Part shown: piece by piece, positions 25,908 through 58,097 of the stretch
How the letters are laid out: every line of letters starts with the position of its first letter
Numbering within the stretch: position 1 is the first letter of the stretch
From: Opitutus sp. GAS368
GTDB lineage: Bacteria > Verrucomicrobiota > Verrucomicrobiia > Opitutales > Opitutaceae
Assembly: GCF_900104925.1 (NCBI RefSeq)
Contig: NZ_LT629735.1
Coordinates: forward strand, 4,013,001-4,077,000
Direction: 5' to 3'
DNA: 64,000 nucleotides
Position numbers and translations under genes: made by a program
The notes under the pieces: model-generated
Database searches by the model: none
What the model saw: the letters and a program-made list of their open reading frames with translations, nothing else
Told to the model about the DNA's origin: nothing

Positions 25908-27095
25908 ATGCGCATCACCATTGTCAGCGGTTTCTTCCTGCCCATGCCTCCGGTTGGCGGCGGGGCCACGGAAAAATCCTGGCACCGGCTCGGGCAGGAG
26001 TTCGCCGCGCGCGGCCACAAGGTGACCATGATCTCGCGCCGCTGGCGGGGCTTTCCCCACGACGAGACCGGCGCCGGCATCCGGCATCTGCGCCTGCCCG
26101 GCTGGGACCACCAGAGCAGCCTGCTGCGCAACCTGCTGCTCGATTTCTGGTGGAGCTGGCGCGTGTTCTTTGCCCTGCCGAACGCTGACATCGTCGTGGT
26201 CAACGCCGTTGCGCTGCCGGTCTGGCTTGGCTGGCTGAAACCCCGGGCCGGACGGGTGGTCATCATGACCGGCCGCATGCCGAAGGGCCAGTATCGCCGC
26301 TACCGCGCCATCGCCCGGGTGCTGGCGGCGAGCAGTTATGTTCGCGACCGCGTGCTGGCGGAAAACCCCGGCCTGGCCCCGGTCACGCAGCTCTACGGCT
26401 ATCCCATCGACTGGCGGATGCTGAACGAATCCGCCGGCAGCGCCCCGCCGACGATGCCGCCGTTCGCAGCCACCGAGGTTGTGTTCGGGTTTGTCGGTCG
26501 CATCCATGAGGAGAAGGGGCTCATGCTCCTGACCGAGGCGCTCCAACTCCTGGCCGCCCAACCCGGCTTGCCACCCTGGCGCCTGTTGCTGTGCGGCCCG
26601 ACCGATGTGGCCCGCGGCGGTTCCGGCCCCGGGTTCCGCAGCCGGTTGATGCGGCAGCTCTCCGCCGTGATGCCCACCGAGCGCTTCCATCTGCTGGACC
26701 CGCAGTTCAACGAGCGCACGCTGGCCGGGGTCTATCACCGCCTGCAGGTTTTCTGCTACCCCAGCCTCGCCGCGCAGGGCGAGACTTTCGGCGTCGCCGT
26801 GGCCGAGGCCATGGCCGCCGGCGCCGTGCCGGTCGTGTCGCGGCTCGCCTGCTTCACCGATTTCGTGCGCGACGGGCAGAACGGCCTGGTCTTCGATCAC
26901 GACGCCCCCGATGCTGCGGCCCGGCTGGCCGATGCCCTCCGCCGCCTGTTGACCGACGCCGACCTGCGGACCCGTCTGGCCGCGGCGGCCCGGCAGGACG
27001 TCAGTTCCTATGATTACGCCGCGTATGCCGGACGTCTGCTCGCCGACTTCGAGCAGTTGACCGCCCCCGCAAAGCCCGCATCCTCCGCCTCGTGA
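25908..27095 (+). CDS. glycosyltransferase family 4
   Basis: 395 residues. The N-terminal sugar-acceptor loop is PMPPVGGGATEKSWHRLG. The C-terminal signature GETFGVAVAEAMAAGAVPVVS lies near residue 290, with E-x7-E. KGQYRRYRAIARVLAASSYV is the middle linker. It begins after the AT-rich spacer, so it may have its own promoter. GTGA overlap with the next gene. Confidence 0.87.
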   Translation: MRITIVSGFFLPMPPVGGGATEKSWHRLGQEFAARGHKVTMISRRWRGFPHDETGAGIRHLRLPGWDHQSSLLRNLLLDFWWSWRVFFALPNADIVVVNAVALPVWLGWLKPRAGRVVIMTGRMPKGQYRRYRAIARVLAASSYVRDRVLAENPGLAPVTQLYGYPIDWRMLNESAGSAPPTMPPFAATEVVFGFVGRIHEEKGLMLLTEALQLLAAQPGLPPWRLLLCGPTDVARGGSGPGFRSRLMRQLSAVMPTERFHLLDPQFNERTLAGVYHRLQVFCYPSLAAQGETFGVAVAEAMAAGAVPVVSRLACFTDFVRDGQNGLVFDHDAPDAAARLADALRRLLTDADLRTRLAAAARQDVSSYDYAAYAGRLLADFEQLTAPAKPASSAS

Positions 27096-27643
27096 GCGCC
27101 CCCTACCTCGGCCAGGATTGCACCACGCCCTACCCGAAGTCGGCCGTCATTGGCCGCTGGCTGTGGCTGGTCGTCCAATCCACGCTGTTCCGCTGGAGTC
27201 CCCGCCCGTTCCACGGTTTCCGCGCGGCGTTGCTGCGCCTGTTCGGCGCCGACATCACCGGTCCGGTCGTGATTTTCCCCACCGCCCGCGTCGTCTTTCC
27301 GAAAAACCTCTCGCTCGCGCCGCACAGCATGGTCGGCCCGCACGTCAACCTCTACAACCTCGCCCGCATCCGCCTCGAGACCGGCGCCAACCTGAGCCAG
27401 CACTGCCACCTGTGCGCCGGCACGCACGATTTCACGCAATGGTCCATGCCGCTGGTCACCAAGCCGATCGTCATCGGCCCCAACGTCTGGCTCGGGGCCG
27501 ACGTCTTTGTCGGCCCCGGCGTCACGATCGGCGAACTCTGCGTCGTCGGCGCCCGCTCGGTCGTGGTGAAGGACCTGCCCGCCCGGCAGGTTTGCGTCGG
27601 CTCGCCGTGTCGCCCGGTCAAGCCCCGGCCCGACCCGGTCTGA
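27092..27643 (+). CDS. WcaF-like hexapeptide acetyltransferase
   Basis: 183 residues with a GTG start at 27092 overlapping the preceding TGA. The C-terminal half is a left-handed beta-helix (VIGPNVWLGADVFVGPGVTI) with a catalytic-type histidine in CAGTHDFTQ. The N-terminal segment SVAL-like FRAALLRLFGADI is typical of WcaF, the colanic acid acetyltransferase. Third putative acyl-modifying enzyme of the locus. Confidence 0.85.
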   Translation: MSAPYLGQDCTTPYPKSAVIGRWLWLVVQSTLFRWSPRPFHGFRAALLRLFGADITGPVVIFPTARVVFPKNLSLAPHSMVGPHVNLYNLARIRLETGANLSQHCHLCAGTHDFTQWSMPLVTKPIVIGPNVWLGADVFVGPGVTIGELCVVGARSVVVKDLPARQVCVGSPCRPVKPRPDPV

Positions 27644-27649
27644 ATTGTC

Positions 27650-28098
27650 ACCACGACGGCACGACGACACCACGATGAAGCCCATCACCTCCCTTTCGGT
27701 TGAGACCGAATCGGTCGCGTCGGGCGCTATTGAATGTGCCTTTAGGGTTCACCGGCAACTGGGACCGGGGCTGCTCGAATCTGTTTATGAGGCCTGTCTC
27801 CTGCACGAACTGAAAAAATCAGGACTTCGATTCGAAAGCCAAAAAATCCTTCCTGTGATCTATGATGACCTGAAGTTGGAAACCGGTTTACGGCTCGATG
27901 TCGTCGTGCAGGAACAAGTCGTCTTGGAGCTCAAAGCCGTGGAGGCGTTGCTGCCGATTCATCAAGCGCAGGTGCTCACTTATCTAAAGCTGACGGGCTT
28001 CCGTCTCGGCTTGCTCATCAATTTCAACACGGTGCTGCTTAAGGATGGCATCAGGCGCGTGGTGTTGTGACTGCGTTGTGCCGTAGTGTCGTCGTGGT
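27650..28098. mobile_element. inverted-repeat unit carrying a GxxExxY gene
   Basis: The left arm (27650-27674) and the reverse complement of the right arm (28074-28098) match at 21 of 25 positions. Both have CACG-like motifs about every 8-9 bases, starting ACCACGACG. The only gene inside starts at 27675, immediately after the left arm, and ends at 28070, four bases before the right arm. The unit is markedly less GC-rich than its neighbours and interrupts the polysaccharide locus. It looks inserted; no target duplication could be recognised. Confidence 0.6.
27675..28070 (+). CDS. GxxExxY family protein (PD-(D/E)XK-like)
   Basis: 131 residues. The name-giving motif is G32-x2-E35-x2-Y38 in GPGLLESVYEACL. 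A PD-(D/E)XK-like pattern follows: D75 in GLRLDVVV and E85-L-K87 in VLELKAVE. The biochemical role of this family is unknown; a nuclease-like fold is suggested by these residues. Codons are far less GC-rich than in the flanking transferases, indicating recent acquisition. The ATG at 27675 is preferred over an in-frame GTG-type start at 27645, which would encode repeat sequence. Confidence 0.8.
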   Translation: MKPITSLSVETESVASGAIECAFRVHRQLGPGLLESVYEACLLHELKKSGLRFESQKILPVIYDDLKLETGLRLDVVVQEQVVLELKAVEALLPIHQAQVLTYLKLTGFRLGLLINFNTVLLKDGIRRVVL

Positions 28099-28107
28099 TC
28101 AACTCTA

Positions 28108-29235
28108 ATGCGCGTCTGCCATATTGTGCCCAGCCTTGAGGAGCGTCACGGCGGGCCTTCGCGGTCGGTCCGCGCCCTCGCCAACGCCGGGGCGGCGCTG
28201 GGTGAATCGGTCGAGTTGCTGGCCACCCTTGAGGCGGGCCAGACGGTGGCGGGCGGCGAGGACCTCGCGACGGTCCGCACCTTTCCGCGAGTGGCCCCGC
28301 GCTGGCTTTCGCGTTCGCCGGAGATGCGCCGTTACCTGCAGGACACTCCCGCCGATATCGTGCACCATCACTCGCTCTGGCTGCTGCCGCTGCGCTATGC
28401 CGGCGAGGCGGCGCGCCGGCAATCCGTGCCGCTGGTAATCTCGCCGCGCGGCATGATGAGTGGCTGGGCCTACCGGCACCGGCGCGGCCGCAAGCGCCTG
28501 GCCGAGTGGCTGGTCCATCCCGGCGCCTTCGCCGCCGCGGCCGGCTGGCATGCCACCAGCCCGGAGGAACGCGCTGACATCCAAGCCCTCGGGTTCAAGC
28601 AGCCGGTCTGCGTCTCGCCCAACGGCGTGTCGTTGCCGGGCGAGGCCGAACTCGCCGCCGCCCGCGCCGCCTGGCACCAGCTCTGCCCCGCGACCCGGGC
28701 GCGGCCCGTCGCGCTCTTCTATTCGCGCCTGCACCGGAAAAAGCGCGTGCGCGAGCTGATCGACCTTTGGCTGGCCGCCTCGCGCGGCGACTGGCTGCTG
28801 CTCGTTGTGGGTGTCGCGGAGGACTACACTCCCGCCGAACTCGCCGCGAATGTGGCCGCGGCAGGCGCGCAGGACCGCGTGGCGGTCTTTGACGGCGCCG
28901 GCCGGCCACCGCCCTACGCGGCGGCCTCGTTGTTCGTGCTGCCGTCCCATTCGGAAAATTTCGGCCTGGTCATCGCCGAGGCCCTCGCCGCCGGAGTGCC
29001 CGCGCTGGTGACCGACACGACCCCTTGGACAGGTCTCGCCAAGAGCGGCTGCGGCTGGTGCACGCCGTGGGAAAACTACGGCACCGCGCTAACGGCGGCG
29101 CTGGCCACCCCCGCCGCCGAACTGACCGCAATGGGCCGGCGCGGCCGCGACTGGACCGCCCGTGAGTTTTCCTGGGCGCGGGCCGCCGGCCTGCTCAATG
29201 AATTCTACCGCCACCTCCGCCATGAGCGCCGCTGA
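28108..29235 (+). CDS. glycosyltransferase family 4
   Basis: 375 residues. The N-terminus VCHIVPSLEERHGGPSRSVRAL carries the glycine loop, IVHHHSLW is a typical middle segment, and the C-terminal signature is in HSENFGLVIAEALAAGVPALV (E-x7-E). It resumes the locus after the GxxExxY unit and overlaps the next gene by 14 bases. Confidence 0.88.
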   Translation: MRVCHIVPSLEERHGGPSRSVRALANAGAALGESVELLATLEAGQTVAGGEDLATVRTFPRVAPRWLSRSPEMRRYLQDTPADIVHHHSLWLLPLRYAGEAARRQSVPLVISPRGMMSGWAYRHRRGRKRLAEWLVHPGAFAAAAGWHATSPEERADIQALGFKQPVCVSPNGVSLPGEAELAAARAAWHQLCPATRARPVALFYSRLHRKKRVRELIDLWLAASRGDWLLLVVGVAEDYTPAELAANVAAAGAQDRVAVFDGAGRPPPYAAASLFVLPSHSENFGLVIAEALAAGVPALVTDTTPWTGLAKSGCGWCTPWENYGTALTAALATPAAELTAMGRRGRDWTAREFSWARAAGLLNEFYRHLRHERR

Positions 29236-34162: not shown

Positions 34163-34230
34163 CCCGCGGATTGCGCGGATGCCCCGGATGGCTTTCTTCC
34201 TTAATCAGCGTTCATCCGCGTAATCCGCGG
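34163..34230. repeat. periodic CGCGGAT inverted repeat
   Basis: The left arm (34163-34189) shows CGCGGAT then CCCGGAT-type repeats. The right arm (34209-34230) has the inverse CGTTCATCCGCGTAATCCGC. Same family as 908-983. It marks the downstream boundary of the polysaccharide locus. Confidence 0.58.
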
Positions 34231-36763: not shown

Positions 36764-36787
36764 GCTGGGCGCGGACTATGTCTTGTT

Positions 36788-36866
36788 GTAGGGCGGGATC
36801 ACCGTATCCCGCCTCAGTTCGACAATGATATCACGCTCAAGGCGGGATGCGGTGATCCCGCCCTGC
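36788..36866. repeat. paired GTAG-headed hairpins, GGCGGGATC family
   Basis: A forward unit (36788-36813: GTAG then GGCGGGAT hairpin) and an inverted unit (36841-36866) face each other about 27 bases apart. The same pair is found at 57947-58025. It lies in the gap before trxA. Confidence 0.8.
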
Positions 36867-36938
36867 AATTTCAAACCAGGACACCACCCTTTTCGCCCCC
36901 CGGCTTGCCTTTTCCCGGCCGCCAACTTTACTCCCCGC

Positions 36939-44871: not shown

Positions 44872-44947
44872 TGGAGGCGGGGCTAGCAGCCCCGCGAGGC
44901 TTGAGCTTCGATGACGGTAACTCGCGGGACTGATAGTCCCGCCTCCA
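44872..44947. repeat. GGAG-headed REP pair, family A
   Basis: A forward unit TGGAG + GCGGGGCT-AGC-AGCCCCGC (44872-44894) and an inverted unit (44921-44947) are separated by about 25 bases. Same family as the units surrounding the RAYT gene at 47.8-48.4 kb. It lies between uvrB and the downstream gene. Confidence 0.85.
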
Positions 44948-47758: not shown

Positions 47759-47787
47759 GGCGCGGGCTCAGACCGCTCGGTTTTGAC

Positions 47788-47873
47788 TGGAGGCGGGACT
47801 ATCAGTCCCGCTGGTTATCACCTGCGCGGAAATATCAGCTCCCAATGGAGGCGGGGCCATCAGCCCCGCGAGG
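47788..47873. repeat. two forward REP units, family A, downstream of RAYT
   Basis: Unit 1 TGGAG + GCGGGACT-ATC-AGTCCCGC (47788-47811). Unit 2 TGGAG + GCGGGGC-CATCA-GCCCCGC (47846-47869). The second contains the stop codon of the RAYT gene. Variation between units is compensatory at the A:T / G:C pair of the arms. Confidence 0.88.
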
Positions 47874-48327
47874 CACGATGCCACAAATCATGTATTAATC
47901 CGCGGTATGGCCAGTCGTCGGCATTCGCCACCAACCCCTTGCGCACGGGATTCTGGGCAACGTATTCCCATTTTTGCCTGTAATCCTCCAGCGAGCGAAG
48001 ATAGCGGTCGAAATAATCCGGCTGCCACATGGCACCACTGCAACCAATGCTCCGGTTGATGCGGGTGGCTGAAATCGATTTCCAAGTCCGCGTCCAAACA
48101 GCCAACGGCAGGGCCTCTGCGCCCGCTTGGGCGAACAAATGCACATGGTCGGGCATCAGCATGTATTGTCCGACAAACCACCCGTTCAGGTCGGCCGACC
48201 GGGTCCAGACGTCATGCAGTATCCCATGCGGCGTGGGATCGGCCAGCAGTAGCTGCCGCCCTCGCGTGCAAACGGTCAGGAACAGGATGGGCGTCCTCTG
48301 AAAGGCCGGAAGATGGGGAAGATGCAT
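47860..48327 (-). CDS. RAYT-type (REP-associated tyrosine) transposase
   Basis: 155 residues of the IS200/Y1 transposase superfamily. The HUH motif is MPDHVHLF near residue 58. The C-terminal segment WEYVAQNPVRKGLV holds the catalytic tyrosine and the conserved NPVR feature of RAYT proteins, and RAYT genes are not themselves framed by IS ends. The stop codon TGA lies inside a REP unit. It is flanked by two REP units on each side, in inverted orientation. Possibly the enzyme that moved or maintains the REP units of this chromosome. Confidence 0.9.
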   Translation of the reverse strand: MHLPHLPAFQRTPILFLTVCTRGRQLLLADPTPHGILHDVWTRSADLNGWFVGQYMLMPDHVHLFAQAGAEALPLAVWTRTWKSISATRINRSIGCSGAMWQPDYFDRYLRSLEDYRQKWEYVAQNPVRKGLVANADDWPYRGLIHDLWHRASRG

Positions 48328-48370
48328 AAGCGGCTGCTGGGACGGCCCGATCCTCGCTGACAGTGATATA

Positions 48371-48436
48371 GCGGGGCTGATGGCCCCGCCTCCAGATTAT
48401 TGCTCGCATCTCGCGGGACTGATAGTCCCGCCTCCA
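48371..48436. repeat. two inverted REP units, family A, upstream of RAYT
   Basis: Inverse units at 48371-48394 (GCGGGGCTGATGGCCCCGC + CTCCA) and 48410-48436 (GCGGGACTGATAGTCCCGC + CTCCA). Their orientation is opposite to the pair at 47788-47873. The last one stops just before the antiporter gene's stop codon. Confidence 0.88.
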
Positions 48437-48437
48437 A

Positions 48438-49778
48438 TCACAGCACCATGAACGAAAATGCCACGAGCAGGGTCGGCACGAGCGCCCCGAGCAGCAGGCC
48501 GAGCGGCGACACGCCGTCGGGAAAATAACGCTGCAGGATCGACTGCCCCGCGGGATTCGGCGCGTTGGCGATCACCGTGAGACCGCCCCCGGTGACAGCG
48601 CCGGACACGACGGCGAACTTCAGCTCCTCGGTGAAATTCGGCACCAGCGTGGCCAGGTAGGTGATGAGGGCGTTGTCGTTGAAGGCCGTCAGGATCGTGG
48701 CCCCAACAAACAGCGGCGCCTGGCCGAGACCGCCGAGCACCGGCTCGATCCACCAGCCTTGCAGGCCGCCGTGGACGACCAGGCCGGCCAAAAAGAATCC
48801 CACGAGCAACGGGCTGCGAAACGCCAGCTTGTCCTGATGCCGGGCCGTCAACCGGACGAAGCCGAGAAAGAGCCCAAAACCGGGAATGAACCACGCGGGA
48901 TGGTGTGCCGCCCAGACCGTGAACCCGAGAAACAGGAGGTGCACCAGGGTCACCCAGACCGGCACCCGCGTCCCGTCGCCGTCCGCGGTGGACGGGGCCC
49001 GGAGCGCGAGCAGCTCGGATTTGAACACCAGCAGATAAACGACGTTGGACAGCAGGATGCCTGCGACGGCGTGCCAGCCGAAATGGGTGAACATGTAGGC
49101 GATGTCCCAGCCCCACGCTGCGGCGACCATCAGCACGGGGGGGGCGGCGAAGTGCGTGAGCGTGCCGCCGATCGAGATGTTGACGAAGAGCAGCCCGAGC
49201 GTCGCATACATCAGCCTGGGCGACGGCCGCAGGTCATAGAATTGTTTCGCCAGCAGCAGCGCCGCGATCGTCATCGCCGCCGGCTCGGTGATGAACGAGC
49301 CCAGCAGCGGCGCGACCGTCAAAATGGAAAGCCACCACGCCACCGGCCGGCCGCCGCCGAGCGCGGCCACCCGGCGCAGGCTTTGCTCGGCCAGCCGCAT
49401 GACCGGCCGGGTCGAGGCCAGCGCCATGATGACGATGACAAACAACGGTTCGGTAAAGCTGACACTGCCGAAATACTGCCCCAAGGCACCGGGACCCTTG
49501 GCCCAGAGAAAAGCCGCCGCCAGGACCACCACCCACAGGCCGAACACCATCTCCACCTCGCCCAGCACGTGCAGCATCCGGGCGCGGGGGCTGCCCTTGG
49601 GGGCGGCATGCGCCGCGTGCGTCAGTTTCGGGCAGAAAAAAGTGTGCAGCACGGCCAGGGCGAAGATCGCCGTCACCGCCACGTTGAACGGTTCGGCCGC
49701 GGCGCGCGACTGGATCACCTCCCACATCCCGGCATGGGCCGGGTCGGCGTAGGCGGAGAGCTCGCGCGGGAAGCTCAT
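48438..49778 (-). CDS. putative Na+/H+ antiporter
   Basis: 446 residues with about twelve to thirteen helices. It resembles the Na_H_antiport_3 group; SFITEPAAMTIAALLLAKQFY and GGTLTHFAAPPVLMVAA are the conserved membrane segments. The internal repeat halves of ion transporters are visible as LFVNISIGGTLTHF and ATILTAFNDNALITYLA. Overlaps the upstream gene (ATGA), so it is the second gene of an operon with a SerB-like phosphatase. Confidence 0.78.
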   Translation of the reverse strand: MSFPRELSAYADPAHAGMWEVIQSRAAAEPFNVAVTAIFALAVLHTFFCPKLTHAAHAAPKGSPRARMLHVLGEVEMVFGLWVVVLAAAFLWAKGPGALGQYFGSVSFTEPLFVIVIMALASTRPVMRLAEQSLRRVAALGGGRPVAWWLSILTVAPLLGSFITEPAAMTIAALLLAKQFYDLRPSPRLMYATLGLLFVNISIGGTLTHFAAPPVLMVAAAWGWDIAYMFTHFGWHAVAGILLSNVVYLLVFKSELLALRAPSTADGDGTRVPVWVTLVHLLFLGFTVWAAHHPAWFIPGFGLFLGFVRLTARHQDKLAFRSPLLVGFFLAGLVVHGGLQGWWIEPVLGGLGQAPLFVGATILTAFNDNALITYLATLVPNFTEELKFAVVSGAVTGGGLTVIANAPNPAGQSILQRYFPDGVSPLGLLLGALVPTLLVAFSFMVL

Positions 49779-53560: not shown

Positions 53561-53930
53561 GACCCCAACGGTGGGAAGCGGCTGCCGTCTGGCAACCCGT
53601 AAACGTCCGCGGCCGCGAACCCGGGAACAACAATGGAGGCGGGGCCATCAGCCCCGCTGATTGGCGATGGAAGGCCGGTCTCCGGGCCGGCTGCGGCTGG
53701 TGCGGAGACCAGCCCTCCCAAGCAAAAGACGTCTGTGCAATGGAGGCGGGACCATCAGTCCCGCGAGTTGATGGCTTCGACGCCTGGCTTCGGTGCTCAT
53801 GCCTCGCGGGGCTGATGGCCCCGCCTCCAACTCTCGGACCAACTCTGCAAAGCGGGACTGATGGTCCCGTCTCCGGCACATGAACTCACCCCCGGCTTGC
53901 GCGCCGCATCCCCGCCCCTCAACCTGCGGC
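53561..53930. repeat. gene-free region with four family-A REP units
   Basis: A 370-base gap. Units at 53634-53657 and 53741-53766 (forward), and at 53803-53829 and 53852-53875 (inverse), share the GGAG head and the GCGGG(A/G)C hairpin. Between the first two is another hairpin region with GGCCGG motifs. No ORF of significance, no promoter recognised. Confidence 0.85.
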
Positions 53931-55221: not shown

Positions 55222-55309
55222 TGTCATTCTGAACGCAGTGAAGAATCCACGGCATCGAACATGATATCACCAGTAAACGCATGGATTCTTCGCTGCGCTC
55301 AGAATGACA
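55222..55309. repeat. TCATTCTGAACGCAGTGAAG-type inverted repeat, copy 2
   Basis: Near-perfect 28-base arms at 55222-55249 and 55282-55309 with about 32 bases between. Same element as 39875-39958. It fills the gap between aroQ and the NusG paralog. Confidence 0.85.
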
Positions 55310-57898: not shown

Positions 57899-57946
57899 CC
57901 GCGCAGTCCAGACAACCCCCGCAACCTTGGCAATCCATTGATTATT

Positions 57947-58025
57947 GTAGGGCGGGATCACCGCATCCCGCCTTGGTTCGAAGACGCTATCACCTTCGAG
58001 GCGGGATGCGGTGATCCCGCCCTAC
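57947..58025. repeat. paired GTAG-headed hairpins, GGCGGGATC family, copy 2
   Basis: A forward unit (57947-57972) and an inverse unit (58000-58025), 27 bases apart, almost identical to 36788-36866. It lies between divergent pgsA and coaD. Spurious in-frame extensions of both genes run into it. Confidence 0.88.
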
Positions 58026-58097
58026 AATCCCTCCACTTTGACACAAAACTTCCTCGCCATCCCTTGGTGCCCTGCAATCCTCATTCCGGTCCGCCGC

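Follow-up and report, generated by a model that had tools for sequence, protein, structure and literature searches.

A GxxExxY gene framed by mirrored seven-nucleotide word arrays in Opitutus sp. GAS368, a probable REP/RAYT-like system with an unrelated enzyme

The window analysed here, a 64,000-nucleotide stretch of the Opitutus sp. GAS368 genome, contains a small gene of the GxxExxY family enclosed by two mirrored arrays of a seven-nucleotide word. It was found that GxxExxY genes are mostly framed by mirrored word arrays in the genomes examined, each lineage having its own word. The feature in the window is probably a unit of a repeat-associated nuclease system, similar to REP/RAYT and built around an unrelated enzyme, for which both catalysis and mobilisation would be expected.

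The left arm of the unit (27650-27674, + strand) consists of the words CACGACG, CACGACG and CACCACG, separated by the single spacers G and A. The right arm (28074-28098) is its mirror image and reads on the - strand as CACGACG, CACTACG and CACAACG, with the spacers A and G, the periods being 8,8 in both arms. Mechanical inverted-repeat detection followed by a recount gave 21 matches in 25 positions (84% complementary), the very figure given in an earlier note on this DNA, and the periodic CACG-type motif described there resolves into three 7-nt words per arm. The gene (27675-28070, + strand, 131 aa) has its ATG at 27675, immediately 3' of the left arm, and its stop ends three bases short of the right arm. 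It is located between two protein genes, outside 23S rRNA. The upstream neighbour (27092-27643, + strand) appears to be hexapeptide acetyltransferase-like and the downstream one (28108-29235, + strand) glycosyltransferase-like, both functions being taken from a look at the sequence. The unit splits co-directional genes, which the earlier note called a polysaccharide operon, and the base composition, described earlier as unlike that of the neighbours, is indeed different, with a GC content of 0.53 in the GxxExxY gene versus 0.69 and 0.72 in the adjoining genes. An Rfam scan of the 64-kb window at gathering threshold returned one tRNA only.

The comparison of orthologous loci without the unit, which the earlier note had proposed as a check, revealed an empty junction in two relatives: in G014 the stop of the upstream neighbour and the ATG of the downstream one overlap, and in G018 the neighbour genes abut with no unit between them. 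The remaining relatives have a short gap, extra genes or an arm pair of another word at this place. At the junction orthologous to window 27644-28107 (L068, L071, L072 and L074) the extra genes differ among G004, G010 and G001 and are, by eye, of acyltransferase, methyltransferase and membrane-protein types and of polysaccharide type; G011 carries a GACTAC-type gene-free unit there. By eye, neither the comparison with the empty sites nor the surroundings of the gene-free copies showed a target-site duplication.

The assignment of the protein to a small PD-(D/E)XK-like GxxExxY family, as the earlier note had it, was borne out by the profiles, with 148.1 bits against TIGR04256 (GxxExxY; cut-off 35) and 146.4 bits against PF13366 (cut-off 22), the latter being the sole Pfam family at E<=0.001. 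The AlphaFold2 model built from 59 aligned proteins had a pLDDT of 95.1 and a pTM of 0.87. The nearest solved folds found by Foldseek were SSO0001 (4ic1, E 6e-4), which we take to be a Cas4-family protein, an alkaline exonuclease, the Cas4 protein Pcal_0546 (4r5q, 8e-3) and lambda exonuclease; the fit is a loose one, since the TM-scores were about 0.5 and the rmsd about 13. No significant hit came from searching the PDB by sequence, where the best match (E 0.05) was an unrelated factor and Cas4 appeared at 0.9. Residues G32, E35, D75, K87, Q99, Y103 and N116 are invariant in the 59 proteins, and E85 is conserved in 90% or more of them. The arrangement D75...E85xK87 on a matching fold is that of PD-(D/E)XK enzymes, and the protein is a predicted nuclease. 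In 12 of 16 hand-picked ortholog pairs dN/dS was 0.02-0.19, dS being saturated in the other four; these values indicate purifying selection at the sequence level and a gene kept as a working protein.

How unusual is the frame was assessed by a score of matches minus mismatches, which for the 25-nt arms of the window is 21 - 4 = 17; the unit reaches 21 in the own-genome scoring, where chance extension past the arms is counted. An arm score of at least 17 was used as the threshold throughout. In the same genome it was reached by 69 of 5796 random intervals and, among the other genes, by 6 of 301. The window arm pair by itself is thus no more than moderately unusual, at about 1 to 2%, and the case for framing rests on the series of genes. 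The six other genes comprise three RAYT-like genes in REP-type repeats, one gene between two word-array gene-free units and two that look like chance. The genome contains 11 GxxExxY genes, nine of which score at least 17 with 150-nt flanks; the two below the threshold (L002, 15; L008, 8) have word arms on inspection, and in L008 another repeat intervenes between the gene and the left arm. One of the framed RAYT-like genes lies in the window itself (47860-48327, - strand; NPVRKG motif by eye) between REP-type arms at 47784-47869 and 48371-48440; it and two more in the same genome (L020:2978-3424 and L026:13189-13656) offer a natural comparison.

The series was extended to the order, where 149 GxxExxY matches were collected from 38 genomes. 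The 100 loci taken first were mostly the stronger ones and included the 11 genes of the own genome; five cut loci were skipped, and 90 of the 95 scorable genes reached the threshold, versus 11 of 497 control intervals. A later set of 20 matches, weaker or nearer to contig ends, together with two of those skipped earlier, gave 21 scorable genes, of which 14 were at or above 17 and seven below, bringing the order-level total to 104 of 116. Beyond the order, the closest 80 of 187 relatives from a single-protein search were chosen with the arms ignored, and 63 of the 75 scorable genes among these closest relatives passed, versus 20 of 1022 control intervals; of the 12 that did not, six scored 10.5 or less. 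These genes came from Pseudomonadota, Planctomycetota, Chloroflexota, Acidobacteriota, Bacteroidota and other groups, and one match, which has a stop inside the matched frame, is from a metagenomic contig attributed to a methanogenic archaeon. The proposed enrichment of frames around GxxExxY genes over other genes was thus found at both levels. Framing is common and falls short of "always", the wording used for RAYTs.

GxxExxY genes are not alone in having repeat frames: S23 genes, chosen for scoring on the suspicion of such frames, carry like ones. The own genome has six S23 genes (TIGR02436, four-helix bundle), five of which score at least 17. The S23 set comprised 35 loci among the matches listed and was scored for framing only; of these matches 30 were scorable and 18 reached at least 17, versus 1 of 154 controls. 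Their arm words, likewise with a period near 8, differ in make-up, for instance TAAGC, GACGGAG, GTGCGGA and GCTGAA. S23 loci with period-8 word arrays are L012-L016 in the own genome and L157-L185 in the relatives, and the framed S23 genes are possible relatives of the rRNA intervening sequences.

The construction of the arms is fairly uniform. Three near-identical 7-mers are chained in each arm of 154 out of 193 GxxExxY units (at most 9 mismatches in 42), the commonest words consisting of C(A/G)C and four further letters, and in 123 of the 154 the same pair of periods is present on both sides. The identity between arms is 0.92 in the words, a value for which the word finder itself selects, 0.55 in the spacers (305 of 551 positions), 0.50 in the 12 nt outside the arms and 0.36 inside. 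High identity in the words together with low identity in the spacers points to conservation of the word and not of continuous pairing: each arm is a direct array of a 7-nt word, with the opposite arm as its mirror image, and not a tagged palindromic hairpin. These values bear on the proposal that pairing of the arms in the transcript makes the unit an RNA hairpin which is excised or processed, as in the S23-bearing intervening sequences of 23S rRNA, a class marked by RNase III excision from the RNA. Mirrored arms around an operon-embedded gene would suit such a hairpin, and heptamer repeats with terminal inverted repeats are described in a passage on one S23 rRNA intervening sequence (PMC4990558). 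Against it, the spacer agreement is barely over the 0.50 outside the arms, mismatches tolerable as G-U on the gene strand are a minority (94 of 237 transitions), and pairing needs no repetition of a word within an arm. Neither the spacer identity nor the G-U mismatch counts gave an RNA-pairing signal in the GxxExxY arms, selection for an RNA hairpin is unsupported by them, and we consider this proposal to have little probability.

The relation between word and protein was followed on a tree of 127 proteins, taken from those of the 154 units that have a word starting with C(A/G)C (or are L006 or L198), lack stops and encode at least 95 residues; the tree was made by a quick method and many of its forks are weak. 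The last letter of the word required 7 changes on it versus a mean of 45 and a minimum of 41 in 100 shuffles. The corresponding changes, observed and shuffled, were 26 and 51 for letter 4, 11 and 31 for letter 5, and 16 and 34 for letter 2, while the nearly invariant letter 6 gave 4 and 6. The spacing, expressed as the pair of periods, changed 34 times versus 83 in shuffles. Framed genes within the genome of the window have mostly unlike words, and sister genes across species have a common word. This pattern shows that gene and arms are inherited jointly; recognition of the word by the protein is compatible with it and is not proven by it alone. A mapping of specificity residues by independent pairs was dropped when a trial yielded only about six such pairs.

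The abundance of loose arrays provides information complementary to that of the tree. Arrays, defined as word-N2-4-word, were counted in 21 genus genomes, and the words of the genes were taken from 102 of 116 genus matches (L213 entered the count under two words, and the word rule overlooked L047); pairs inside the gene unit itself were subtracted before comparison. The counts vary strongly among the 21 genomes, and the pattern read backward occurs 0 to 2 times per strand. For all six words examined, genomes with the cognate GxxExxY gene hold more arrays (one-sided p 0.0012 to 0.021), these cross-genome tests not being fully independent since the 21 genomes are related species. In a within-genome permutation 0 of 20000 trials reached the observed association of gene and array. 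The forecast for CGCGAAT, fixed in advance, held fully: the three predicted genomes contain 78, 34 and 13 arrays (ranks 1-3 of 21) and the other 18 contain 0-3. For CACGGAA it held largely, with 71, 45, 20 and 16 arrays in the four predicted genomes (ranks 1, 2, 4 and 5) and 0-28 in the other 17, rank 3 being the unpredicted G005.

The association is not specific in every case. Array counts of different words co-vary (mean difference 0.89 off-diagonal versus 2.04 on-diagonal), the CGCGGAT gene tracks CACTAAT arrays (2.09) above its own (1.67), and for the CACGGAT gene the two values are equal (1.70). In several genomes many arrays of a word occur with no cognate gene detected: G003 has 35 CGCGGAT arrays (99% complete, one contig), G016 has 26 CACTAAT arrays (100% complete), G017 has 46 CACGGAT arrays and G005 has 28 CACGGAA arrays. 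G007, with 18 CGCGGAT arrays, has no GxxExxY match at all and is 86% complete.

Gene-free units occur in the window as well. An outer CACTAAT frame at 1334-1599, delimited by inverted-repeat and word-array detection and by the junctions of relatives, encloses a CACGGAT unit at 1385-1549, the innermost CACAGGAG-type pair of which lies, by eye, at about 1438-1502. Within a second CACTAAT unit, at 2494-2657, lies another CACGGAT unit, placed by eye at about 2541-2601, and the word-array detector located a CGCGGAT unit at 34165-34229. Of the seven gene-free gaps of like style that had been claimed for the window, these three were found to be word arrays, though a looser style may have been meant. 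Several other inverted repeats of the window, at 36786-36868, 44872-44947, 47784-48440, 53634-53829 and 57944-58028, look non-periodic by eye. Over 393 kb the detector found 15 inverted pairs; the same procedure gave 5 when set to direct orientation, and 0 when run on triplet-shuffled sequence. GC-rich coding words (GCGCCG, TCGGCG) account for three of the 15, and another two connect arms that belong to neighbouring units. An inverted repeat of the TTCTGA...GAAGAATCC type at 55222-55309 recurs beside the L008 gene and in the loop of the L267 B-C junction, inside a CACTAAT frame. A T-run (TTTTAACCAC) often precedes the arms of gene-free units, by eye.

The roughly 165-nt CACGGAT unit at 1385-1549, which contains the inner CACAGGAG-type pair, can be aligned to eight further stretches of the own genome. 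In seven of the nine sequences both outer arms are recognisable by eye and the identity ends there; in L285 and L286 an outer arm is degraded. Most of the nine are in unlike flanks, L283 and L285, about 2.3 kb apart, have flanks in common, and L281 is a copy nested in a further CACTAAT frame. At two junctions of the window, around 1326-1605 and 2478-2672, the outer CACTAAT frame is common to relatives and the inner units differ by species, being of CACGGAT, CGCGGAT, CACGAAA type, CACGGAA or CGCAAAG type. Only part of the outer frame is kept in G005 and G009, and further relatives show an S23-type arm pair or a short gap. In four species different inner units lie, by eye, near one point of one loop, perhaps as a result of a target preference. 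The different flanks, the nesting and the site differences between species indicate, as far as sequence comparison can, that the arrays move.

A REPIN consists of two REPs and a variable loop, and the gene-free units resemble such arm pairs rather than deletion derivatives, since the 15 sequences compared have only the arms in common, with short and variable loops. No coding trace was detected at E<=0.01 when 15 gene-free sequences were compared with the coding parts of 197 gene units, and an origin by internal deletion was not supported for the 15. The earlier note's view of the gene-free copies as non-autonomous derivatives is corrected accordingly. When recent gene-bearing copies were sought by DNA identity, 163 similar pairs were found; 105 of them also had common flanks, and the search thus offered no case of a gene-bearing unit that had freshly transposed.

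Nesting is also what would be expected if the arm pairs were independent palindromic repeats and the GxxExxY and S23 genes were parasites inserting into their loops: the loops repeatedly hold other units, and two unrelated gene families are found in one style of frame. A gene hopping between arrays would break the pairing of word and protein, and the words track protein lineages from species to species, just as the genes go with the numbers of their cognate arrays. Such homing into loops is very improbable. Somewhat less so, and still unlikely, is the possibility that the GxxExxY protein binds its word solely for the control of its own expression or for chromosome structure, the arrays being its sites and other machinery moving them. 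Binding of this type would account for the conservation of words rather than spacers between arms (with the reservation, made above, that the finder selects for word identity), for the way the word follows the protein and for the genomes with arrays and no detected cognate gene. It accounts less well for similar copies in differing flanks, for nesting and for the species differences in sites, which indicate movement, for the conservation of the predicted nuclease residues D75, K87 and E85, and for the association of the gene with the abundance of its cognate array.

The repeat-associated nuclease system remains, in our judgement, the probable explanation. The GxxExxY nuclease would bind its own word, probably several copies of it per arm and with several subunits, and would cut at or near arm pairs; such cuts could cause gene-free arm pairs to be copied or moved in trans. 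For its part the gene would be mostly a vertically inherited single copy that rarely spreads. The analogy with RAYT drawn in the earlier note gains support from the co-inheritance of word and protein and from the cognate gene predicting the number of arrays. One may speculate further, with rather less than even confidence, that a broad class of word-array mobile elements exists in Bacteria, perhaps also in some archaea, convergent with REP/RAYT, in which each GxxExxY or S23 protein would recognise a private 7-8-nt word, present about three times per arm, and would disperse bare arm pairs that stack into each other's loops; the S23 rRNA intervening sequences would be members that landed in rRNA.

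These results suggest a testable function for GxxExxY, a widespread family named only by its motif, and a likely origin of the periodic repeats that abound between genes. The pairing of protein and word should be readable, many natural proteins of about 130 residues being available, each with a known 7-nt word. They also supply a concrete hypothesis for the origin of the S23-bearing rRNA intervening sequences.

At the level of titles and abstracts, the open-access literature (subscription papers and preprints being outside it) yielded no paper on GxxExxY genes in repeat frames. The word GxxExxY occurs in PMC12085832 and in a paper that mentions such a gene beside a reverse transcriptase, and the accession PF13366 occurs in PMC9756366. 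The GTAG-type REPs of Verrucomicrobia, as they appear in a passage of PMC3733652, are a different type of repeat. Among enzymes, the Cas4 and lambda-exonuclease PD-(D/E)XK nucleases are the nearest solved folds, with weak geometry. The gene-free units share with MITEs and non-autonomous IS derivatives a short length, dispersal and terminal inverted repeats near a gene-bearing unit; unlike MITEs, they showed no coding remnant in the 15 tested. Inspection by eye brought no target-site duplication to notice. The S23 rRNA intervening sequences resemble the GxxExxY unit in containing a short gene within terminal inverted repeats, and the portion of PMC4990558 dealing with one of them places its ORF behind the heptamer repeats. 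They differ in being inserted into 23S rRNA, whereas the GxxExxY unit lies between protein genes and belongs to another family.

The closest parallel is REP/RAYT. A passage of PMC2817692 describes two repeats in inverted orientation around the RAYT ORF, co-evolution of the two and the abundance of the cognate repeat, and one of PMC3116915 states that each RAYT in a genome is distinctive and present as a single copy. Both systems have genes framed by inverted repeats, co-inheritance of protein and repeat, and a number of loose repeats that tracks the gene. They differ in that the RAYT enzyme is an HUH-tyrosine (Y1) protein and the GxxExxY enzyme a predicted PD-(D/E)XK one, and in that a REP is a tagged hairpin whereas a GxxExxY arm is an array, in most cases of three 7-nt words. 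Moreover, unlike in REP/RAYT, the loops of word arrays are often occupied by other units and the unrelated S23 family has like frames. Since three features of REP/RAYT are shared while the enzyme and the structure of the repeat are different, the GxxExxY gene is not a RAYT, and the system would represent a second, non-homologous solution to the role that RAYT plays for REPs.
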